NCBI GenBank assembly: GCA_030550025.1 | Contig: JAUQQC010000002.1 | Span: 1,625 to 65,624, forward strand | From: Acidobacteriota bacterium | Lineage (GTDB): Bacteria; Acidobacteriota; Blastocatellia; HR10 | Direction: 5' to 3' | Length of the DNA stretch: 64,000 nt | Shown here: positions 49,553-63,914 of the stretch, piece after piece | Position numbering within the stretch: the first letter of the stretch is position 1 | How the letters are laid out: each line of letters opens with the position of its first letter | Position numbers and translations under genes: made by a program | The notes under the pieces: model-generated | What the model was told of the DNA's origin: nothing | Database searches by the model: none | The model's input: only the letters and a program-made list of their open reading frames with translations

Positions 49553-50608
49553 TCACCGCACGTCAGGGCGCGGCGTGGCCAGCGTCTCCTCGTCGAAGTA
49601 GAGTTCCGTTTCCGAGAGGGTGCATTCTCCAAGGATCGTCGGCTGAGGCGCCGCTATGGCCTCAACGCGGAAGAACGAAGAACGATACCAGTCGCGATCG
49701 GGCAAATGGCCCTCGATTCGAAAGAGCGACATCATGGCGTAGCTCGCGTAGAACCGCTCCCATCGGTTCTCGCGCTCCGGGTAAATGCTGAAATCTCGGA
49801 GGACATCCGTGATGACGAGGTTCATTCGAAGCAGCAATTGTTGCAGGCGATGCCATTTCACGAGCGAGGCTTCGAGCGTCGTCAATCCGAAATATCCGGC
49901 GGCATACCGACCGCGCAGGCTCGCCGCCGCGCGCGAGAGGAACAGCTCGAATCCGGGCACCGTCTCCACCGGATCGGTGACGAACGTATCGAAGCTTGCC
50001 GTGAGATCGGGGGGGAGGGGGCGTCGAATGTCTAGCGGGCGGAATTCAATGACGAATCCCTGCTCGCGATTCACGCGTTCGAGGAAAGCGCCCAAGCGCT
50101 CGTCCACATCAATGACGACAATGCGCCGCGGCCATCCCGTTATGGCGAGCGCGATGCTGACCAGATCATCATCGCCAATGAGCACGATGTCGCGATCGGC
50201 CACATCGCCCATTCGGTGCATGAAAGCGACGCGCGCCAGGGCATCGTCCGATCGCATGAAGCCTTGATCGTATTCGGCCACCGGCAGCGGGCGTTCCCGC
50301 GTCAGCTCCAGAAACCGTCGTCGCCAGGCTTCAGGCACGCGAAGTCCCTTCCCCTGACAGGCCGAGCAGGAAAAATCCTCCCCTTCCGGTCCCGCGATCG
50401 CCAAGCTCCGACTCGCCTCACGACCGCGCTCCGTCAAGTGAATCTGTGTCCCCTGGTTGCTCGACCGTTCGACCCACCCTTCCGTCTGCAAGCGTTCGAG
50501 CGTCTCGCACAACTCGCGAATCGAGTACGGCCAGCGGCTCAGGATGTCCCACAGGCTTCGCGGACCGTCTCGTAGGAGGGTGAGGAGAAGACTCCCAGGC
50601 TTTTCCAT
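49553..50608 (-). CDS. bpsA: Branched-chain polyamine synthase, BpsA family
   Basis: 351 residues. N-terminal winged-helix-like region (LLTLLRDGPRSLWDILSR, HLTERGREAS), a Cys pair (CSACQGKG), then an S-adenosyl-type methyltransferase fold with the active-site segment LIGDDDLVSIAL and VVIDVDERLGAFL. In Thermococcus, BpsA adds two aminopropyl groups from decarboxylated SAM to spermidine to give N4-bis(aminopropyl)spermidine. The SAM decarboxylase gene upstream supplies exactly that donor and overlaps this gene by 70 bp. Branched polyamines are associated with growth at high temperature. Confidence 0.85.
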   Translation of the reverse strand: MEKPGSLLLTLLRDGPRSLWDILSRWPYSIRELCETLERLQTEGWVERSSNQGTQIHLTERGREASRSLAIAGPEGEDFSCSACQGKGLRVPEAWRRRFLELTRERPLPVAEYDQGFMRSDDALARVAFMHRMGDVADRDIVLIGDDDLVSIALAITGWPRRIVVIDVDERLGAFLERVNREQGFVIEFRPLDIRRPLPPDLTASFDTFVTDPVETVPGFELFLSRAAASLRGRYAAGYFGLTTLEASLVKWHRLQQLLLRMNLVITDVLRDFSIYPERENRWERFYASYAMMSLFRIEGHLPDRDWYRSSFFRVEAIAAPQPTILGECTLSETELYFDEETLATPRPDVR

Positions 50609-50949
50609 GATACGCCTCGGTCAAGGATCTTACGATCCACCTCCACCGGAGCCAGCTCCTTGCAGATCGCCTCGAACGCACGCAGCGCCTGCTCTTCCGA
50701 ACTGCAGCTGAAGATGTCCAGCGCGATGTACGACTCTTCGGGCCACGTGTGCACGCTCACATGCGACTCCGCCAGAAGGACGAAACCCGTGACGCCGAAG
50801 GGTTGAAATTGGTGGAAAGAACTGGTGAGGATCTTGAAATCGTGATCGCGGAGAATCTTTAAAAGGAGTGGCTCCAAGTGTTCGACGTAGCTGAGGGTGC
50901 GTTGATCAACGCCATACAGCTCCCCGAGGATGTGAATGCCGATGGCCAT
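50539..50949 (-). CDS. speH: S-adenosylmethionine decarboxylase proenzyme
   Basis: 136 residues. Pyruvoyl enzyme making decarboxylated SAM, the aminopropyl donor for polyamines. The self-cleavage site and catalytic region LLAESHVSVHTWPEESYIAL (about 60-79) is intact, with the Ser that becomes pyruvoyl, the processing His and downstream FSCSS with the catalytic Cys. The N-terminus, GIHILGELYGVD, is typical of the class 1B bacterial form. GAGGAGGG 9 nt upstream is the ribosome-binding site. Its 3' end overlaps bpsA by 70 bp in a different frame. Confidence 0.94.
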   Translation of the reverse strand: MAIGIHILGELYGVDQRTLSYVEHLEPLLLKILRDHDFKILTSSFHQFQPFGVTGFVLLAESHVSVHTWPEESYIALDIFSCSSEEQALRAFEAICKELAPVEVDRKILDRGVSWKSLGVFSSPSYETVREACGTS

Positions 50950-51103: not shown

Positions 51104-51132
51104 TTGCTGCCTGCGCGGTTTTGTGCTATTCT
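51104..51132 (+). promoter_or_regulatory. Candidate sigma-70 promoter of the FHA signalling operon
   Basis: TTGCTG (51104-51109), a 17-bp spacer and TATTCT (51127-51132) preceded by TGC (extended -10). The ATG at 51170 follows with CAGGAGG, giving a leader of about 30 nt. Confidence 0.5.
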
Positions 51133-51169
51133 AAGCCGAGAAGCCGATGACGCAGGAGGCGCGTGTTCG

Positions 51170-51706
51170 ATGCGGCGGTGTCACCGGTGCGGAGCGGAGA
51201 ATCTGGAGGACTCGGTCTACTGCGACGAGTGTGGGGCGCATCTTTCTGCTGCGGCGGAAGCGAAGTCCCCGACTTCCGAGGCCGAAGCGACTCTCGGAGG
51301 GAGGCCTTCCGTCTCCTCCTCTTCCTCGATGGCCGATGAGGAGCTCTCGGCGTCATCGTCCGGTGCTCGTCCGCGCGCGAAATTGGTGCTGCTGCGCGGC
51401 GGTCGCGTGGGACGGGAATTCCCCGTGACGGAGGCGGAGGTGATGATCGGTCGGTGGGATGCCGAGCACGGGATCTTCCCGGAGATCGATCTGGACGAGG
51501 AGGATCCGGAAGCGAAAGTCTCTCGACGCCATGCGCGCCTCTTTTATCGGGACGGACGATTCTGGATCGAGGACCTGGGGAGCTTGAACGGGACGTTCGT
51601 GAATCGCGGACCTCGACTCCGTCCAGGTCAAGCGGTGCCATTGAAGCACGGCGACGAGATCATCGTGGGGAAGACGTTCTTGCGCTTTCTCATCGAGGGG
51701 GTATGA
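51170..51706 (+). CDS. Zinc-ribbon plus FHA-domain adaptor protein
   Basis: 178 residues from ATG 51170 (AGGAGG 9-10 nt upstream); an in-frame start at 51065 is rejected because it lies upstream of the promoter. N-terminal zinc ribbon (CHRCGAEN and CDECGAHL), a Ser/Glu-rich linker, and an FHA domain (about 85-178) with the phosphothreonine-contact residues GR, SRRHA and the LGSLNGT loop. FHA domains read phospho-Thr marks, so this looks like a soluble adaptor for the kinase encoded next. ATGA overlap with the kinase gene. The region upstream to speH (50950-51169) holds only the two promoters and the speH leader. Confidence 0.85.
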   Translation: MRRCHRCGAENLEDSVYCDECGAHLSAAAEAKSPTSEAEATLGGRPSVSSSSSMADEELSASSSGARPRAKLVLLRGGRVGREFPVTEAEVMIGRWDAEHGIFPEIDLDEEDPEAKVSRRHARLFYRDGRFWIEDLGSLNGTFVNRGPRLRPGQAVPLKHGDEIIVGKTFLRFLIEGV

Positions 51707-53205
51707 AGTTCTGCGCGCGGTGCGGATCGTCCGTTCAACCCGACGATCTCTTCTGCGGCGAATGCGGGGCGCGGCAGATCTCCTCCGCGTCGCTGGAGGA
51801 GAGACCTCGTGGGGGCGTCTTCCCACCGCTGGCGGAGCTGCCGCCGGGGGCGGTCTTGCGCGATCGCTATGAGATCGTCCGGCGCGTCGGCGGCGGAGGG
51901 ATGGGCAACGTCTATCAAGCTCGCGATCTTCATCTGCAGGGAGCCGTGCGCGCCGTCAAGGAGATGATCGAGATGTTCTCCGACCCCGTCCTGCGGGAGA
52001 AAGCCGTGCGCGATTTCCAACGCGAGGCGCGCCTTCTGGCCAGCCTCCGGCATCCCTCGATCCCGATCATCTACGATCACTTCGTCGAAGGCGGGCGGTA
52101 TTACCTCGTCATGGAGTTCATCGCGGGGGGGGATCTGGCCACGCGGCAACAGTTGGTCGGCGGGCGCTTCGACGAACTGACGGTCACGATGTGGGCCATT
52201 CAAATCTGCGACGTGCTCGACTATCTGCACACGCGGCAGCCGCCGATCATCTATCGAGATCTCAAGCCGGCCAACGTGATGATTGATCCCGAGGCCAATC
52301 GCGTCGTGCTCATCGATTTCGGGATCGCGCGCGTGGTCGCGCCGCGGGAGAGGGGGGTAACGGCGATCGGGACGATGGGATACGCGCCGCCGGAGTTATT
52401 CGCCGGACAGGCCGAGCCGCGCTCGGACATCTATTCGCTTGGTGCCACGATGTTCCATCTGTTGACGGGCGTGGATCCGCGCGACCAGCCGCTGCTGATC
52501 TTCGACTTCACGAGGAATCCGACACCGCGTCAACTCAATCCCGAACTGACGCCTGAGATGGAGCGCATCCTCATGCGCGCCGTCGCGCACGCGCCGGAGG
52601 AGCGGTTCGCCTCGGCGCGGGAGATGAAGGGCGTGTTGGAAGCGCATCTGACCCTCTTGCGCGAGCGATACGGCGATCGCCTGGAGCAGGCCTATCGGAT
52701 GGCGTTCGGTGATCTCGTCCGCCGCGTGGGCGCGGACGTCGCACCTCGAATCGGCCCAGTCGTCGAGACCGTCTACTGCAGCTATTGCGGGGTGAGCATT
52801 GGCGCCGATGATCTCTATTGCGCGTACTGCGGCGCGCGACAGCCGATCGAAGTCGAACCCATGCGCGCGAGCGCGCGCCTGCTCGTCCTCGATGCGCGCT
52901 CGGGTGAAGCGCGGGCGACGCATGCGCTGTTGAAGGAATCGAATCTCATCGGTCGCGCCGATCCGATCTCCGGCGTCTTCCCGGACGTGGATCTTTCGCC
53001 TTATGATCCGGGAGCGAAAGTCTCCCGTCGGCACGCGCGCATTTGGCGCGCGGAGGGACGCTATTGGATCGAGGACCTGGCGAGCGTCAATGGGACGTTC
53101 CTCAACGGGCGACGGCTTCTACCCCCGCGAACGCCTCATGCGTTGAACGATGGTGATCGCTTGCGGATCGGCGAAGTGCCGCTGCTCTTCCGGCACGGAG
53201 AGTGA
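51703..53205 (+). CDS. Zinc-ribbon Ser/Thr protein kinase with C-terminal zinc ribbon and FHA domain
   Basis: 500 residues from ATG 51703. N-terminal zinc ribbon (CARC, CGEC; Cys4, 7, 18, 21), kinase domain about 56-320: G-loop VGGGGMGNVYQA, Lys86 in AVK, catalytic loop YRDLKPANVM (Tyr for the usual His), LIDFG, GYAPPELF and SDIYSLG. A second zinc ribbon follows (CSYCGVSI, CAYCGARQ), then an FHA domain very similar to the first gene's (IGRADPISGVFPDVDL, SRRHA, LASVNGT). No transmembrane helix, so cytoplasmic. Kinase-active by sequence. It probably phosphorylates or is read by the other FHA proteins of the operon. Confidence 0.9.
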   Translation: MKFCARCGSSVQPDDLFCGECGARQISSASLEERPRGGVFPPLAELPPGAVLRDRYEIVRRVGGGGMGNVYQARDLHLQGAVRAVKEMIEMFSDPVLREKAVRDFQREARLLASLRHPSIPIIYDHFVEGGRYYLVMEFIAGGDLATRQQLVGGRFDELTVTMWAIQICDVLDYLHTRQPPIIYRDLKPANVMIDPEANRVVLIDFGIARVVAPRERGVTAIGTMGYAPPELFAGQAEPRSDIYSLGATMFHLLTGVDPRDQPLLIFDFTRNPTPRQLNPELTPEMERILMRAVAHAPEERFASAREMKGVLEAHLTLLRERYGDRLEQAYRMAFGDLVRRVGADVAPRIGPVVETVYCSYCGVSIGADDLYCAYCGARQPIEVEPMRASARLLVLDARSGEARATHALLKESNLIGRADPISGVFPDVDLSPYDPGAKVSRRHARIWRAEGRYWIEDLASVNGTFLNGRRLLPPRTPHALNDGDRLRIGEVPLLFRHGE

Positions 53206-53208
53206 GCG

Positions 53209-53841
53209 ATGGCTACCCTCTGCCCGCGATGTCAAGCGCCACAGCGACCGACGGCGCGATTCTGCCGGATGTGCGGGGCTTCGCTTGGTGAGCCCTCGCT
53301 CATGACGACGAGCGAAGGCGTCGTCCGAGCGCGCGAGAGCGCGAAGGGGTCCATCAAAGGGGCGGGGGAATTCGCCCTCCCGTTGCCTTGGACGGAAGAG
53401 GAGCGACCTCGGGTGCATGCGTTCTCGCCGGCCTCGCCTCTTCTCCGACTCGAAGCGTTCTTCTTCGATCTCTTCCTCGTTCTGGGCGCCATGCTGGTAG
53501 CGGTCATCGTAGCCGTCGCCGTGCGGGAGCGACTCCTGCTGGTGGAGATGGCCTTGTGGAGCGCGCTCGCGGCCGGCTTGGTGTGGGGCGCGAACCATCT
53601 CATACTCTGCAGCGTGCGTGGGCAGTCGGTGGGGATGGCGCTTGTGGGCATTCGCATCGTGCGCGCCGATGGTCGCCCCATATCCTGGGGGCGCTCGCTC
53701 TTACGTCATACGATCGGATATGGGCTCGCGGGGCTCTCGCTCGGGCTCGGCTTCCTCTGGATGTTCGTAGATAAGCGAGGACGAGGATGGCCGGACCTAG
53801 TGAGCGGGACTTGCGTCATTGAGGAGGTCTCCGATGATTAA
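53209..53841 (+). CDS. Zinc-ribbon RDD-family membrane protein
   Basis: 210 residues. N-terminal zinc ribbon (CPRCQAPQ, CRMCGASLG), a linker with a Lys-rich segment, then an RDD domain (about 80-200) with RLEAFFFDLFLVLGAML, a transmembrane helix around residue 125, and RGQSVGMALVGIRIV plus RSLLRHTIGYGLAG in the family-typical order. RDD proteins are membrane proteins, some of them transporters; here the module is tied to the zinc-ribbon theme of the operon. Starts 3 bp after the kinase stop and overlaps the phosphatase start. Confidence 0.87.
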   Translation: MATLCPRCQAPQRPTARFCRMCGASLGEPSLMTTSEGVVRARESAKGSIKGAGEFALPLPWTEEERPRVHAFSPASPLLRLEAFFFDLFLVLGAMLVAVIVAVAVRERLLLVEMALWSALAAGLVWGANHLILCSVRGQSVGMALVGIRIVRADGRPISWGRSLLRHTIGYGLAGLSLGLGFLWMFVDKRGRGWPDLVSGTCVIEEVSDD

Positions 53842-55561
53842 GCTCTTGGTTCGCACTCCGGGTCATCCTCCGGTCACATTCGAGGTCACCAAACGTCGGA
53901 TCGCCATCGGACGCTCGGCGCACAACGACCTGTGTCTGGAGGATCCGTTCGCCTCTCGCGTGCATGCCGAACTGCGCCGCGAGGGGCCGACGTATTGGCT
54001 GACGGATCTGGGGAGCGCCAACGGCACCTATATCAACGGCATACGCATTCGCGAAACGGTGCCGATCGCTCCCGGCGATCGTCTCCAGATCGGGGAGACG
54101 ATCCTCGAAGTCCTCTCGGGCGTGGACGTCCCTTCTGGGGTGGCCTCTCTGGCGGGCGAATCCGTGCGCGAGGTCATCGCGCGTCCGGAGATGGAGATCT
54201 CTTCGGCGGAGCGTCCACCCATGGCGCCCGAAGTCTTCTCGGTGGTGGATTCGATACGTACCGTGTCAGTCGGTCTCGCACCGGAGGTGGAACAGGGCCG
54301 GAAGCTGCTCACGGTCATCAGTCAGGTTGGGGTGGCGTTGCTCTCTTCGCTCTCGCTCGAGGAGGTGCTCAAGCAGATCGTCGGGCTTGTGCTGGAAGCC
54401 GTGCCCGCGGAGCGCGTCTTCCTGCTCCTGAAAAATGCTCAAGGCGAATTGGTGTGTAAAGTTGCCTGTTATCGGGGGCAGGAGCCTTCGGAGGTCGAGC
54501 GCGCCGTGCGCATCAGTCGTTCGATCACCGAAGAGGTCATTGGGCGCGGGCGCTCGGTGCTCACCTCCGACGCGCAAGTGGACGAGCGCTTTCGGCAGTG
54601 CGACTCGATCCTGCTGAGCGGCATCCGCTCGATCATGGCCGTCCCGCTTTCGGTGAATCGGCGAGAGGGTTCATCGGCACCTCGGTCGATCATCGGGATG
54701 ATCTACGTGGACAATCCTATGAACGCTGGCGCGTTCACGGAAGGGGATCTGCAGCTTCTGACGATGATCGCGTCGGTGGCGGCGATCAAGATCGAGAACA
54801 CGCTGCTGCTGGAGCAGCGATTGGAGAATGAGCGGATCAAGCAGCAGATGGCGCAGGCGCGCGATCTGCAGTTTCAGCTTCTGCCCATCACGCCTCCGGA
54901 AGTCGAGGGCTACGATCTGACGGGCATCAGCTTCCCGTGTTACGAGGTCGGGGGTGATTATTTTGACTTCATTCGCCTGCCCGATGGAGCGCTCATCCTC
55001 ACGTTGGGCGATGTGTGCGGCAAGGGGATGGATGCGGCCATGCTCATGTCGGCGTTGCACGCGAGCGTGCGCGCGCAGGCGATGGCCTCCGGTTCGGTCG
55101 CTGAGATGGCGGCGGCCATCAATCGCTATCTCGTCGAGACGACGGCTCCGAATAAGTTCGCGACGCTTTGGCTCGGACGCCTGGATCCGCGCGCGCACGA
55201 ACTGTGCTCTACGAATGCCGGGCATAACCCTCCGCTTCTCTTGCGCGCCCGTGGGGACGTGGAGTTTTTGAAGAAGGGGGGGATCCCCGTGGGCGTTTTG
55301 GGGGAAGCCGTCTACGAGGAAGAGCGCCTGCACCTGGAGCCGGGAGATGTGCTCGTCGCCTTCAGTGATGGGATCAGCGAGAGCATGAACGAGCAGGGCG
55401 AGGAGTTCGGCGTCGCGCGCCTGGTGGACGTCGTGCGGCGTCATCGCGAGTTGCGCGCAGCGTCCTTGCGCGATCGGATCGAGGAAGCGCTCAGCCTCTT
55501 CATCGGGAAGGGGCGTCCGGTCGACGACATGACGCTCCTCATCTTGAAACGGACGGCGTGA
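53834..55561 (+). CDS. FHA-GAF-PP2C (SpoIIE-type) phosphatase
   Basis: 575 residues from ATG 53834 (GAGGAGG upstream). N-terminal FHA domain (about 1-95: IAIGRSAHNDL, FASRVHAEL, LGSANGTYIN), a GAF domain (about 165-330: VAERVFLLLKNAQGELV, GIRSIMAVPLSVN, MIYVDNPMNAG), then a coiled linker and a PP2C/SpoIIE catalytic domain (about 350-575) with YEVGGDYFDFIRL, LGDVCGKGMDAAM, NAGHNPPLLL, FSDGISE and DDMTLLIL. All metal-binding Asp/Gly positions are kept. Likely removes the phosphates written by the kinase or acts on an anti-sigma antagonist, as RsbU does. Confidence 0.92.
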   Translation: MIKLLVRTPGHPPVTFEVTKRRIAIGRSAHNDLCLEDPFASRVHAELRREGPTYWLTDLGSANGTYINGIRIRETVPIAPGDRLQIGETILEVLSGVDVPSGVASLAGESVREVIARPEMEISSAERPPMAPEVFSVVDSIRTVSVGLAPEVEQGRKLLTVISQVGVALLSSLSLEEVLKQIVGLVLEAVPAERVFLLLKNAQGELVCKVACYRGQEPSEVERAVRISRSITEEVIGRGRSVLTSDAQVDERFRQCDSILLSGIRSIMAVPLSVNRREGSSAPRSIIGMIYVDNPMNAGAFTEGDLQLLTMIASVAAIKIENTLLLEQRLENERIKQQMAQARDLQFQLLPITPPEVEGYDLTGISFPCYEVGGDYFDFIRLPDGALILTLGDVCGKGMDAAMLMSALHASVRAQAMASGSVAEMAAAINRYLVETTAPNKFATLWLGRLDPRAHELCSTNAGHNPPLLLRARGDVEFLKKGGIPVGVLGEAVYEEERLHLEPGDVLVAFSDGISESMNEQGEEFGVARLVDVVRRHRELRAASLRDRIEEALSLFIGKGRPVDDMTLLILKRTA

Positions 55562-55562
55562 G

Positions 55563-56831
55563 ATGGAGACGCTCGCCCTTTCGCTCATCCCGTGTTGGCT
55601 GTGGCTTCTGTGGTTCTGGTTCCAGGATTGGTATGATCGGGAGCCACTGCGCACGATCCTCGTGACCTTCCTGTTGGGTGCGCTGGCGACGCTTCCGGCG
55701 ATGCTCTTCAACGCCGTTGGGGTGCTTGTGCTCTCTGGATTGCTCGGCGCGAGCGTGATGAGCGAGTGGCTGATCCTCTTTCTGGTCGTCGGCCCGGTGG
55801 AAGAAGCGATGAAGCTCTGGGCCGTTGCTCGCTACGCCTATCGGCGGCCGGAATTCGATGAACCGGTGGATGGGGTCGTCTACGGCGCGGCCGCCGCTTT
55901 GGGGTTCGCGGCGGCCGAGAACGTGCTCTACCTCAGTCGGTTTGGGAGCGAGATCTTCCTTGTGCGCGGCATCCTCTCTAATCCCGGGCACGCGCTGTTT
56001 GCCGCCTTCTGGGGCTTGGCGCTCAGTCGGGCCAAGATGCTCCCGAATGTGGGGAGTCTGCGGGCGCGGACGATCGCGCGGGGGTGGATGCAGGCGGCGC
56101 TGCTGCATGCGCTCTTCGATGCGCTGCTTTCAGCCGGGCAGCATCGTCTCTTGCCGAACGTCGTCGTCATCGGGATCGTAGCGCTGCTCATGCTCGCCAT
56201 CTTCGCATACGTCGAGATTCGAACCGTGCGGCATGTCGCGGGCTCGCCGCATCGGCGGGGGACGATGGTGCTCGCGGGATTAGCGCCGTGTCCGAACTGC
56301 GGACGCGTGGGAACGGTTGGTCACGCGTGCGTGGGGTGTGGGATGAGGATCCCCGAAGCCGATGGACGCCACTGCCCGGCATGCGGAAAACCGCAACGCG
56401 CGGGCGTGACGATTTGTCTGGAGTGCGGCGCGAGCCTCTCGCCGCAACCTTCGACTCCGCCGCGCGTGCGCGAGCCGCATCTGGTGCGGTTGCTGCCGGA
56501 TGGTCGGGAGGAGATCGCCTTCGTCTTGGATCGCCCGGTGGTCACCGTCGGCAAGACCCTCGATAACCATTTCGTCATTGACGATCCGACCGTCTCCAAG
56601 CATCACGCGAAGTTCGTCTGGCATCCGAGCGGCGGCTTCGTCGTCGTGGATTTAGGAAGCACCAATGGCACCTACGTCAACGGACAGCGCGTGCGCGAGA
56701 ATCTTCTGCGAAACGGATTCGAGATTCGCTTCGGGCGCGCGCGCTTCATCTATCGCGCGCTGGAGCGGTCGGTCCCCCTCGTGGAAGAAGGATCTCCACC
56801 GTCGCGCCTCGATCCACGCCCAACGCCGTAG
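55563..56831 (+). CDS. PrsW-type intramembrane protease fused to zinc ribbons and FHA domain
   Basis: 422 residues. N-terminal PrsW-like multi-helix domain (about 1-225): GPVEEAMKLWAVARYAY with the catalytic EE, FAAAENVLYLSRFG and ALLHALFDALLSAG with the His ligand. Then zinc-ribbon modules (CPNCGRVG, CVGCGMRI, CPACGKPQ, CLECGASLS), and a C-terminal FHA domain (about 310-400; TVGKTLDNHFVIDD, SKHHAKFV, LGSTNGTYVN). PrsW proteases cleave anti-sigma factors. Fusion to FHA implies that cleavage or recruitment depends on Thr phosphorylation. Its 3' end overlaps the convergent DUF62 gene by 86 bp. Confidence 0.9.
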   Translation: METLALSLIPCWLWLLWFWFQDWYDREPLRTILVTFLLGALATLPAMLFNAVGVLVLSGLLGASVMSEWLILFLVVGPVEEAMKLWAVARYAYRRPEFDEPVDGVVYGAAAALGFAAAENVLYLSRFGSEIFLVRGILSNPGHALFAAFWGLALSRAKMLPNVGSLRARTIARGWMQAALLHALFDALLSAGQHRLLPNVVVIGIVALLMLAIFAYVEIRTVRHVAGSPHRRGTMVLAGLAPCPNCGRVGTVGHACVGCGMRIPEADGRHCPACGKPQRAGVTICLECGASLSPQPSTPPRVREPHLVRLLPDGREEIAFVLDRPVVTVGKTLDNHFVIDDPTVSKHHAKFVWHPSGGFVVVDLGSTNGTYVNGQRVRENLLRNGFEIRFGRARFIYRALERSVPLVEEGSPPSRLDPRPTP

Positions 56832-60212: not shown

Positions 60213-63200
60213 TCACCAATTGATACGCGCGCCGAATTGCACAATCCGTGGATCGTACGCGCCGTTATGGCCGCTGATGCGACCGAAGTTGACGCTGTTG
60301 ATGTCGGTCGTCGGCGCGCCGAAACTCACGGCGTTGAAGAGATTGAAGAACTCAGCTCGGAACTCAAAGGTCATCGCCTCGGTGATCCGAACGCGCTTGA
60401 GCAAGTTGAAGTCGAAGCGCCAATAGCCGGGCGTGTTCAAGATGCCGAACCCGAGCGAGCCCAACCGTCCGGGCTGCGGGTTGGCGAAGATGCTCGATGA
60501 GGCACGCCCATCGGGCCCAATCAGCGAGGGATCGAAGTAGAAGACGCCGGAGCCCGTCTTGCGCACTCGGGTGAGCTTCTTCAAATCTTCCGCCGTCATC
60601 CCGATGAGGTCTACGGTGTTGCCGCCCGAACGCCCCACGCGATTGATCGTCCCACGCCCGGAGAAGATCGAGAGCGGTTGTCCCGTATAGGCGATGAAGA
60701 TCCCACTCATCTGCCAGTTGCCGAAGAGTTTGTCCACCCATCCGCTTGTGTTCAGGAAGCGCTTGCCCGAGCCAAAGGGTAGCTCGTAGATGAAGTAGGC
60801 GTTGACCCGGTGCCGCGTATCGAAGCTCGCGCGTCCATACTCGTAGCGCGGATCGCGCAGGGTGATGAACGCCGCGAAGTTCGTGCTCGATCCTCCGAAG
60901 TCCGTGAGCGCTTTGCCAAAGGTGTAGTTGGCGTTGAACTGCAATCCCTGCGAGAAGCGCCGACGGACCTCCACCTGCAGCGAGTGGTAGTTGGACGAGG
61001 AGCCGTTGGTGATCAGGTCCGAGAAGAACGCTTCGGGATTGACGACGAAGAAGTTGATCGGGAGATTGCCCCGTGGGCCGGTCAGGGCATTCAGGAAATT
61101 CAGGAAGAGTTGACTGGCCAGCTCTCCCGCTTCATTCTGGTCTAGCCGCAGGATGAAGGTCGAGTTGCCGAAGCCCGAGGAGAGTGGCAGCCCAGCAAAC
61201 AGCGTCTCGAAGATCGGCAGCGGGACCTGCCCGGGCAATCCCTGATTATCAAACCGAGCCCCGCGTCCCTGGGCCCGACTGATCGCCAGGTTCCGTTGGG
61301 CGTTCAGGAACTCTTGCAGGAAGCCGTTCTCGAAGATGTTCGTCTCGTTGAGGTCAATGCCGCGCCAGAGCTTCACCCCGCGATTACCGACGTAGCTGAT
61401 CTCCAGGGCCAGATTGGGTGTCAGCTCGCGTCCGTAGCTGAGCGACCACGTTTGCACGTAGGGTGTGCGCAGGTTCTCGGCGAAACCAAAGATACCGCTG
61501 GTCCGACTCGTGCGGAAGTTCTCGAGTTGCGGGATCGGTACCTGGAACGTCGGTACGGTCGGTTTCGGCCATCCGTTGCGCAGCGAGGTGAAGTTCGCCC
61601 CGCCCTGAATCCCTTGCGCAGCCGTCGTCAGCGAGATCGTCTTGGTGAACCCCTGGTTGCTTCCCAGGGCATTCGTGATCACGCTCACGCTCTCGAGCGA
61701 GTAGGCGATCGAGTACCCCCCTCGGATGACGCCCTTGCCCGGTCCTCCGAAGAAGATGCGGGTGAACCAATTCCGGCTCTGCGGCGACCAGGCCAGGCCA
61801 AAACTCGGTGCGAAGTTGTTCAAGTCTTCGTTGAAGAATTTCCGCCCGTTGGAGGAACTCGCCAGATCGAGCATCACCGGGGATCCGGTCATCACGCCGG
61901 GCCGGAAGAGGTTCCCCTTGCCAGAGATGCCGAAGTATGCCGCTTCACCCCCGACGGGCTGCAGCGCCAGCCGGTTCAACTGATCCGGCACGGTCATGTA
62001 CTCGTATCGGATGCCGTAGTTGAGCGTCAGATTCGGGCGCGCGCGCCAGGAATCGGAGAAGTAGAAGCCCCAATACCGCTGCCGAATCTGATTGCGGAAG
62101 AACTCGCCCTCGACGAAGCCCGACTTCGGGTCCTTCACGTTGAACGTCTGCGAGACGCCGGCGATCTGCCCGATGAGGATCGCATAGACGTTTTGCGCCA
62201 GGGAGCGCGTCGCCGTCGTGCTCGCCGGGAAGGCCGCCGTCGGCAAGGGCGAGGGATTCGCCGTGCCGAAGCCAATCGTGAGCGTGGGGATCGTCCCGGT
62301 CGTATTCGTCGTCTGATTCCCGACAATCGAGCGGAAGTCGCCACCAAAGCGAAGCGTGTGTCGCCCACGAATCCAGGCGAAATTGTCGAGCCACTGGAAG
62401 TTCGACGTGTTGCGCCCGCTGGTGATCCCGATCAGATGCGGATCGGTGATCGTGGGGAAATCCAGCCAGTAGAACTTCCCCCCCAACTCGAAAGCGTCGA
62501 ATTCGCGGCCGAAGATGACCGGAGCGCGCTGGAATCCAAATCGCGCTTCGTTCACCTTATTGGGGCCGAACGTCGAGCGCACCGCGAACGAGCCGGTCGA
62601 GCGCCAGGAATCTTGAAACCCGCCCTTCATGCCGGGGAACATCGGCTCGAAGCCGTTGAGCGTGTCGTTATCCGTGTCGAAGCGAACGAGGTGATAGATC
62701 GCTTCGGCCGTGTGCGTATCGTTGATGCGCCAATCCACGCGCCAGCTCGGTCGGATGACGCGGCTGAACGTCGGGACGTTCCATCGGAATCCGCCCGTGA
62801 CCAGCCCGTCTCCAATCTGGAAGTTATTCGGCAGCGGATACCGCTCGTTGATGATCCGCATGATGAAGGGGTCCGGCCCGATGCCGCCCGCTTGGAAGAG
62901 ATCCACCGTCCGAATCTGTCCGCTCGTGTCGCGATACCGGAAGATCCCCTGCCGCGCTTCGGCCGTCAGCACCGTGCGGTTTCGCGTGACTTCGCTCGCT
63001 GAGGTCGTGATGTCAAGCGAGGTGAACATGAAGATCTTGTTCTTGACGATGGGGAAGCTGGCGCGTCCGCCGAATTGATTGCGAATGAGCTTCTCACGCG
63101 GCGTGCCCGTCAGGTTGTTGAAGAACGAATTCGCATTCAGGACCGTGTTCCGGTGGAACTCGAAGAGGCTGCCGTGGAACTCGTTGCTGCCGCTCGGCGT

Positions 63201-63914
63201 CACCAGGCGGATGAAGACGGCACCGCTTCCGGTCGCCGAGGCATCCGTCGTGCTCGTCGTGATGGTGAACTGCTCGACGTTCTCCACTGTCGGCGAAGAG
63301 ATGATGAAGAATCCGTCGCCCGAGCGGAGGAAGTTATCCTGTACATTGATCCCATCCTGCGTGATGTTGATGACCGATTGGCGCAGGCCATTGATTCGCG
63401 ACGCCCGCTCGCCACCCGAGGTCGTGACCCCAGCCGCCAGTGTCGCCAGCGTGATGGGGTTGCGGGCGACCAACGGCATGTCCAAGATCGGACGCCGACT
63501 GATAACCGTCGTCAGCTCTTGGCTAGTCTTGCTGATCACTTCCTCGCCGGTCGAAGTGACGGTGACTTCTTCCACAACTCCTCCTACTTCCAGTTTGACA
63601 TCCACCGAAGCGTAAACGGCCACGTCCACGCGAATGTTCTCGCGCACGAACTTCTTGAATCCCGGAGCCTCAACCGTCAACGTGTAGGTGCCGACTGGAA
63701 GGACCGGGAAGATGAACACACCTTGGGCATTGGTTTGCGTCGTCCACTTGGCGTTGGTGCCCGTGTTAACCACTTCCACCTTCACCCCAGGCAGATACGC
63801 GCCCTGTGGGTCTTGCACGGTTCCATCCAATCGCCCCGTATTGGCCTGTCCCCAAACGGTGGGGAAGAGCCCGAGCAGAAGAAGGAGCAAAATCACCGAA
63901 AGTCGTCTCAGCAT
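60213..63914 (-). CDS. Oar-like TonB-dependent outer-membrane receptor
   Basis: 1,233 residues. Signal peptide SVILLLLLLGLFPTVWGQ, carboxypeptidase-regulatory-like domain (about 24-110: LDGTVQDPQGAYLPGVKV and LPVGTYTLTVEAPGFKKFV), plug region with NGLRQSVINITQDGINVQDN and IRLVTPSGSNEFHGSLFEF, then a long beta-barrel ending VQFGARINW with the aromatic C-terminal residue. Larger than the receptor at 20.4 kb and not closely similar in the barrel. Preceded by a sigma-54-type promoter and a hairpin that encloses its own Shine-Dalgarno. Its substrate is not known. Confidence 0.9.
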   Translation of the reverse strand: MLRRLSVILLLLLLGLFPTVWGQANTGRLDGTVQDPQGAYLPGVKVEVVNTGTNAKWTTQTNAQGVFIFPVLPVGTYTLTVEAPGFKKFVRENIRVDVAVYASVDVKLEVGGVVEEVTVTSTGEEVISKTSQELTTVISRRPILDMPLVARNPITLATLAAGVTTSGGERASRINGLRQSVINITQDGINVQDNFLRSGDGFFIISSPTVENVEQFTITTSTTDASATGSGAVFIRLVTPSGSNEFHGSLFEFHRNTVLNANSFFNNLTGTPREKLIRNQFGGRASFPIVKNKIFMFTSLDITTSASEVTRNRTVLTAEARQGIFRYRDTSGQIRTVDLFQAGGIGPDPFIMRIINERYPLPNNFQIGDGLVTGGFRWNVPTFSRVIRPSWRVDWRINDTHTAEAIYHLVRFDTDNDTLNGFEPMFPGMKGGFQDSWRSTGSFAVRSTFGPNKVNEARFGFQRAPVIFGREFDAFELGGKFYWLDFPTITDPHLIGITSGRNTSNFQWLDNFAWIRGRHTLRFGGDFRSIVGNQTTNTTGTIPTLTIGFGTANPSPLPTAAFPASTTATRSLAQNVYAILIGQIAGVSQTFNVKDPKSGFVEGEFFRNQIRQRYWGFYFSDSWRARPNLTLNYGIRYEYMTVPDQLNRLALQPVGGEAAYFGISGKGNLFRPGVMTGSPVMLDLASSSNGRKFFNEDLNNFAPSFGLAWSPQSRNWFTRIFFGGPGKGVIRGGYSIAYSLESVSVITNALGSNQGFTKTISLTTAAQGIQGGANFTSLRNGWPKPTVPTFQVPIPQLENFRTSRTSGIFGFAENLRTPYVQTWSLSYGRELTPNLALEISYVGNRGVKLWRGIDLNETNIFENGFLQEFLNAQRNLAISRAQGRGARFDNQGLPGQVPLPIFETLFAGLPLSSGFGNSTFILRLDQNEAGELASQLFLNFLNALTGPRGNLPINFFVVNPEAFFSDLITNGSSSNYHSLQVEVRRRFSQGLQFNANYTFGKALTDFGGSSTNFAAFITLRDPRYEYGRASFDTRHRVNAYFIYELPFGSGKRFLNTSGWVDKLFGNWQMSGIFIAYTGQPLSIFSGRGTINRVGRSGGNTVDLIGMTAEDLKKLTRVRKTGSGVFYFDPSLIGPDGRASSSIFANPQPGRLGSLGFGILNTPGYWRFDFNLLKRVRITEAMTFEFRAEFFNLFNAVSFGAPTTDINSVNFGRISGHNGAYDPRIVQFGARINW

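Follow-up and report, generated by a model that had tools for sequence, protein, structure and literature searches.

In actinobacteria, the fhaA-fhaB-pstP-rodA-pbpA-pknA-pknB locus brings together Hanks-type kinases, a phosphatase and at least two FHA readers, and this clustering is conserved across a high-level taxon (PMC6554272). Among described systems, that locus is the nearest in logic to the subject of the present analysis, a five-gene operon (g1 to g5, Table 1) in which a kinase, a phosphatase and FHA readers are likewise clustered. The operon lies in a 64-kb window (the whole analysed stretch of 64,000 nucleotides, contig JAUQQC010000002.1) of the 3.17-Mb genome of a hot-spring-type Acidobacteriota bacterium of the class Blastocatellia, and encodes a small FHA adaptor (g1), a Ser/Thr kinase with its own FHA domain (g2), an RDD membrane protein (g3), an FHA-GAF-SpoIIE phosphatase (g4) and a PrsW-type intramembrane protease with an FHA tail (g5). 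The reading favored here, with some confidence, is that the operon represents a hub for the writing, reading and erasing of phosphothreonine that is ancestral to and vertically inherited in Blastocatellia, with PrsW as an optional, phosphothreonine-gated output.

The operon does not belong to the actinobacterial locus type, because its kinase lacks PASTA domains (no PASTA match in g2 with Pfam) and its phosphatase is of a different class, g4 carrying a SpoIIE domain (PF07228) instead of a PstP-type PP2C domain (PF13672/PF00481); a preliminary description of this DNA had called g4 a PP2C phosphatase. It also differs in that most of its proteins have zinc ribbons, that membrane proteins of the RDD and TPR kinds are encoded and that some families add PrsW, while neither rodA nor pbpA was recognized among the flanking open reading frames (ORFs) that were read, most of these neighbors not having been scanned against a family library. 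The PpkA-PppA-Fha/TagH cluster of type VI secretion systems (T6SS) also places a kinase, a phosphatase and an FHA reader in one cluster, a likeness in logic only, and in Agrobacterium an FHA protein reads phosphothreonine on an inner-membrane protein in the T6SS pathway (PMC3953482). Assignment to a T6SS module was rejected: g1 scores 50.1 bits against the TagH model TIGR03354 (cut-off 120.25), and no T6SS genes were recognized beside the operon. Ser/Thr kinases of cyanobacteria and Chloroflexus contain FHA domains bearing the same GR, SxxH and NG motifs as g2 (PMC1262709), but zinc ribbons and a conserved operon are not described there. Kinase-phosphatase-vWA conflict neighborhoods resemble the operon in placing a kinase-zinc ribbon fusion beside a protein phosphatase gene (PMC7159879), whereas no vWA, GTPase or effector domain is present in the Blastocatellia operon. 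As for the protease, g5 shares its fold family and invariant glutamates and histidines with the PrsW/RsiW/SigW system of Bacillus subtilis, and this genome, too, encodes membrane anti-sigma factors, along with a homologue of the site-2 protease; unlike its B. subtilis counterpart, g5 has a C-terminal double zinc ribbon and FHA domain and no linked anti-sigma gene. No description of an FHA-PrsW protein or of the operon was found in the open-access literature, outside which most subscription journals lie.

The five genes are arranged head to tail on the plus strand (51170-56831) with spacings of -4, +3, -8 and +1 bp, in agreement with the five consecutive genes and gaps of -8 to +3 bp first described. 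The start of g1 had been placed at 51104, where the codon is TTG; the ATG at 51170 opens MRRCHRCG, with M1 invariant in 45 g1 orthologues, and is most likely the true start. A promoter and terminator scan gave matches no more numerous than in shuffled sequences. Four of the proteins carry FHA domains (g1, g2, g4 and g5) and four carry zinc ribbons (g1, g2, g3 and g5), with two ribbons in g2, as Pfam matches and the invariant cysteines of g5 bear out. An FHA tree likewise agrees with the earlier view of FHA relationships: the domains of g1 and g2 cluster together and have a ~9-residue insertion in common, and those of g4 and g5 belong to two other clades.

Conservation was assessed in alignments of 45 orthologues each for g1 and g2, 46 for g4 and 17 for g5. 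The FHA motifs GR, SxxH and NG are invariant in g1, g2 and g4, including G94, R95, S118, R119, H121 and N140 of g1 (together with its four ribbon cysteines), G417, R418, S441, R442, H444 and N463 of g2, and G26, R27, S41, R42, H44 and N63 of g4. In the kinase domain of g2, invariance extends to K86, E108, Y184-R185-D186, K188, N191, D205-F206-G207, T220 and T224, which cover the catalytic Lys, the alpha-C Glu, the YRD and DFG motifs and the activation-loop Thr of Hanks-type enzymes; by its conserved residues, g2 thus qualifies as a catalytically competent Hanks-type Ser/Thr kinase. Its second ribbon (C359, C362, C373 and C376) is equally invariant, and the first is absent from some families. 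The SpoIIE aspartates of g4 (D375, D393, D512, D564 and D565) show no variation either. The closest FHA structures were GarA/OdhI, with FhaA also matched, all of them readers tied to PknB-type kinases, as the titles of the structure entries also indicate. Kinases of one family, f5, are often enlarged to 640-920 aa by long extra sequence (e.g., L146 2578-5169 and L147 2436-5183).

Orthologues of the full-length kinase were detected in 155 of 162 Blastocatellia genomes and those of the phosphatase in 148, with the g1-g4 core mostly in single copy. Among the 135 genomes for which both kinase and phosphatase were listed, 128 have the kinase gene ahead of the phosphatase gene, on the same strand and no more than 5 kb away; the remaining seven, all fragmented assemblies, have the two genes on different contigs. 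Among 396 evenly sampled Acidobacteriota genomes, the kinase orthologue was present in 47/47 Blastocatellia and 0/349 others, at a cut-off of E <= 1e-100 that could miss diverged relatives and in a search confined to Acidobacteriota. FHA-GAF-SpoIIE proteins occur throughout the phylum, and the other operon genes were not adjacent to the corresponding gene in 17 examined loci outside the class, including the three most similar. A phylum-wide operon was therefore rejected, since only the phosphatase architecture is phylum-wide and it stands alone at those 17 loci. In a tree of kinase and phosphatase, every family forms one clade, which indicates that the operon core has been inherited vertically.

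Gene-order maps based on simple ORF calls covered about 47 loci from all nine Blastocatellia families (f1-f9), and the order g1-g2-g3-(TPR)-g4 was found in each family; because it recurs so widely, the arrangement is not due to chance. At every mapped locus with enough contig, g1 is upstream of the kinase. Two f6 g16 genomes and G103 lack the RDD gene g3, which otherwise sits between the kinase and phosphatase genes in nearly every family, and in f8 and parts of f5 and f9 a gene for a zinc ribbon-transmembrane-TPR (or transmembrane-TPR) protein is inserted between g3 and g4. In G103, kinase and FHA-GAF-SpoIIE phosphatase form one in-frame ORF of 1100 aa (L133 3124-6423); this fusion may be an assembly error, since the contig is short. 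The preliminary description had suggested looking for the five-gene order in other acidobacterial genomes, and what holds across the nine families is the order of g1-g4, PrsW orthologues with zinc ribbon and FHA domain being present in only 19 of the 162 genomes. In terms of sequence distribution, the conserved unit is genes 1 to 4 and the PrsW gene is accessory.

The protease itself is a clear PrsW family match (137.4 bits against PF13367, cut-off 23.5). It does not reach the curated cut-off of the NCBIfam PrsW equivalog NF033739 (116.4 bits versus 225) and therefore belongs to the PrsW family without being an equivalog; it is the sole PrsW in its genome. Residues E80, E81, K84, E119, N120, H143, H182 and D186 are invariant, as are H348, N368 and G369 of the FHA domain, with S345 nearly so. 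Although no Pfam ribbon model exceeded its cut-off, a double zinc ribbon is assigned to g5 because all eight cysteines of its two CxxC...CxxC sites are invariant. The predicted structure consists of eight helices followed by an FHA sandwich (mean pLDDT 73.7), and a PDB fold search gave a confident match for the FHA part only; in this model, the FHA tail follows the membrane part and probably faces the cytoplasm. Classification of g5 as a PrsW-type polymorphic toxin was rejected, its C-terminal part being a double zinc ribbon and FHA domain with no toxin domain.

The PrsW gene directly follows g4, as the last gene, in f1 (the window's family) and in f8. Reading of the flanks showed the gene to be by itself in one f6 genome and one f9 genome, and in a second f9 genome it lies on a short contig fragment. 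A PrsW tree separates f1, f8 and f6+f9. Since f8 and f1, which have the gene in the same position, are not sister families, f2 and f5 being closer to f1, linkage of PrsW to the operon appears to be old, with later loss in f2 and f5; transfer of the gene between families may be another route to the shared position. A GTDB-wide scan with two short peptide patterns, which can miss diverged cases, did not find this protein outside Blastocatellia, and none of 64 other PrsW ORFs that it returned carried an FHA domain, though a few had zinc ribbons. A second FHA-PrsW design, with N-terminal FHA, C-terminal PrsW, no zinc ribbon and a length of about 510-610 aa, occurs in f6 and f9. Because its FHA domain falls in a separate clade of the FHA tree, FHA and PrsW have probably been joined independently in two opposite domain orders, and this probable repeated origin strengthens the idea that the coupling matters.

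Table 1. Coordinates of the operon genes and of related genes at other Blastocatellia loci (positions of g1-g5 refer to the window, all others to the locus named)
Feature	Position	Strand	Product	Evidence or remark
g1	51170..51706	+	zinc-ribbon + FHA adaptor, 178 aa	Pfam FHA 7e-17, Zn_Ribbon_1 8.5e-7
g2	51703..53205	+	zinc-ribbon, Ser/Thr kinase, zinc-ribbon, FHA, 500 aa	Pfam Pkinase 1e-38, FHA 8e-18, two Zn-ribbon stretches
g3	53209..53841	+	zinc-ribbon + RDD membrane protein, 210 aa	Pfam RDD 1e-18, Zn_Ribbon_1 7.7e-6
g4	53834..55561	+	FHA-GAF-SpoIIE phosphatase, 575 aa	Pfam SpoIIE 7e-50, FHA 2e-20, GAF 3e-14
g5	55563..56831	+	PrsW intramembrane protease + double zinc ribbon + FHA, 422 aa	Pfam PrsW-protease 6e-40, FHA 1.6e-20
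N-terminal-FHA PrsW proteins	L016 934-2460; L019 1123-2964; L021-L023	L019 -		including two-contig genomes of f6
Zinc-ribbon kinase genes upstream of g1	L117 788-2638; L118 681-2513; L119 1758-3569; L120 670-2487; L139 1366-3168

Further zinc-ribbon kinase genes are found upstream of g1 in f6, f7 and f9, and the two scanned (L117 and L119) also carry a PP2C domain. The flanks otherwise vary by family, with polyamine and NifS genes in f1, an HlyD-type gene in f5 and a methyltransferase gene in f2/f3, and therefore offer no functional clue. The divergent pair upstream of the operon in the window (49553-50949, minus strand) appears to comprise SAM decarboxylase-like and branched-polyamine-synthase-like genes and is kept beside the operon only within the window's genus. 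Elsewhere in the window (60213-63914, minus strand) lies a gene for a large protein that, as read from sequence only, resembles TonB-dependent receptors and has a carboxypeptidase-regulatory-like part at its N-terminus. HAMP/HD-GYP-type proteins adjoin the operon in some f5 genomes (L146 7573-11155 and L147 7581-11127), and one lies beside the stand-alone PrsW-FHA gene in f6 (L037 10928-12751); the L146 protein was scanned with Pfam, and those of L147 and L037 were read from sequence.

Because one conserved operon combines a small reader with a kinase and a phosphatase that each carry a reader themselves, a self-limiting phosphothreonine hub fits this locus. The link originally drawn between phosphothreonine writer, readers and eraser is strongly supported, as gene order is conserved together with the residues for catalysis and phosphate binding. 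Composition, conservation, linkage and invariant active-site residues are direct readings of the sequences, and from them we infer every binding, phosphorylation and cleavage step of the hub. The cytoplasmic kinase g2 would autophosphorylate on its activation loop at the invariant T220/T224, and g1 and the kinase's own FHA domain would bind activation-loop or other phosphothreonine sites, with the zinc ribbons as possible joints that serve assembly or respond to redox state or metals. The RDD protein g3, together with the zinc ribbon-transmembrane-TPR protein in several families, would anchor the complex at the membrane; an intramembrane binding site open to the cytoplasm has been reported for the RDD domain (PMC12419801), which would suit a role as membrane anchor or sensor. 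The phosphatase g4 would then read the mark through its FHA domain and erase it when the ligand state of its GAF domain is right. In f1 and f8, the FHA tail of PrsW may bring the protease together with phosphothreonine-tagged membrane clients or with the kinase complex, so that cleavage would occur only while the mark is present.

This last part, a phosphothreonine-gated intramembrane protease in which a client tagged by the kinase would be captured by the FHA tail of PrsW and then cleaved, is advanced tentatively. The likeliest client would be a membrane anti-sigma factor of this genome, with the site-2 protease completing cleavage. The preliminary description regarded the target as missing, and indeed the window contains no sigma/anti-sigma pair; the genome as a whole, by contrast, has eight zf-HC2 anti-sigma ORFs adjoining ECF sigma genes, nearly all with one transmembrane segment, and a site-2 protease homologue (E 4e-60). 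All of these are unlinked to the operon, and for this reason the PrsW client remains a guess. The earlier proposal that the pathway ends in regulated proteolysis is not supported as a general statement, because g1-g4 are near-universal while PrsW is infrequent and unlinked in two families; where PrsW is present, its conserved FHA domain makes a phosphothreonine-gated output plausible. The trigger proposed earlier, stress or membrane damage, is a candidate only.

Several observations weigh against the favored reading. Neither the operon nor the 64-kb window contains a sigma or anti-sigma gene. The first FHA motif of g5 is GK in the window's genus rather than the canonical GR, which f8 orthologues have. 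PrsW with zinc ribbon and FHA domain is missing from 143/162 Blastocatellia genomes, and its gene lies away from the operon in f6 and f9, so that the case for its coupling to this kinase depends on the two families in which the genes are linked. In addition, STAS proteins are frequent substrates of SpoIIE-type phosphatases, and the genome encodes at least one RsbW-like ATPase (HATPase_c_2 matches).

An alternative that we regard as unlikely, yet worth serious attention, is that the hub governs envelope growth or division, with PrsW as a lineage-specific passenger for membrane-protein clean-up whose FHA domain is merely localizing. Such a role would accord with a core that is near-universal in Blastocatellia and not tied to PrsW, with an operon that includes membrane proteins of the RDD and TPR kinds, and with the analogous actinobacterial locus of FHA readers, kinases and phosphatase, which controls cell wall and division (PMC6554272). 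The resemblance does not extend to the PASTA-less kinase, and no rodA/pbpA-like or wall gene was recognized in or beside the operon among the ORFs read, few of which were family-scanned; the variable flanking genes also speak against it.

It is more improbable still that g4 works mainly in partner switching, dephosphorylating a STAS anti-anti-sigma protein encoded elsewhere, with the kinase and FHA proteins tuning this activity. RsbU/RsbP-like regulators combine a SpoIIE-family domain with a sensor, as g4 does with its GAF domain; the RsbW-like matches in the genome and the frequency of FHA-GAF-SpoIIE proteins in the phylum without the operon point the same way. However, no STAS or RsbW gene was recognized in the operon in any mapped family, and the strict adjacency of g4 to a Hanks kinase, together with its fusion to one in G103, favors the kinase or its products as substrate. 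A conflict or defense system combining kinases, phosphatases and zinc ribbons is highly implausible and was rejected: although the kinase domain matches the PD-T4-6 and MAD6 models in PADLOC, zinc-ribbon kinase/PP2C/vWA neighborhoods are described in conflict systems (PMC7159879) and PrsW is found in polymorphic toxins (PMC3482391), the PADLOC match is limited to the generic kinase domain, no vWA, nuclease or toxin domain was detected with Pfam, and the operon is near-universal, mostly single-copy and vertically inherited.

Under the phosphothreonine-hub reading, an entire class of bacteria common in soil and hot springs seems to have retained a single such hub, mostly in one copy, which in this form is missing from the other sampled acidobacteria. 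In the window, its five proteins constitute a small set with four readers, one kinase and one phosphatase. Should the FHA tail indeed gate PrsW, Hanks-type kinase signaling and intramembrane proteolysis, which are usually studied apart, would be joined in one system, and Ser/Thr phosphorylation would be wired directly into regulated intramembrane proteolysis.

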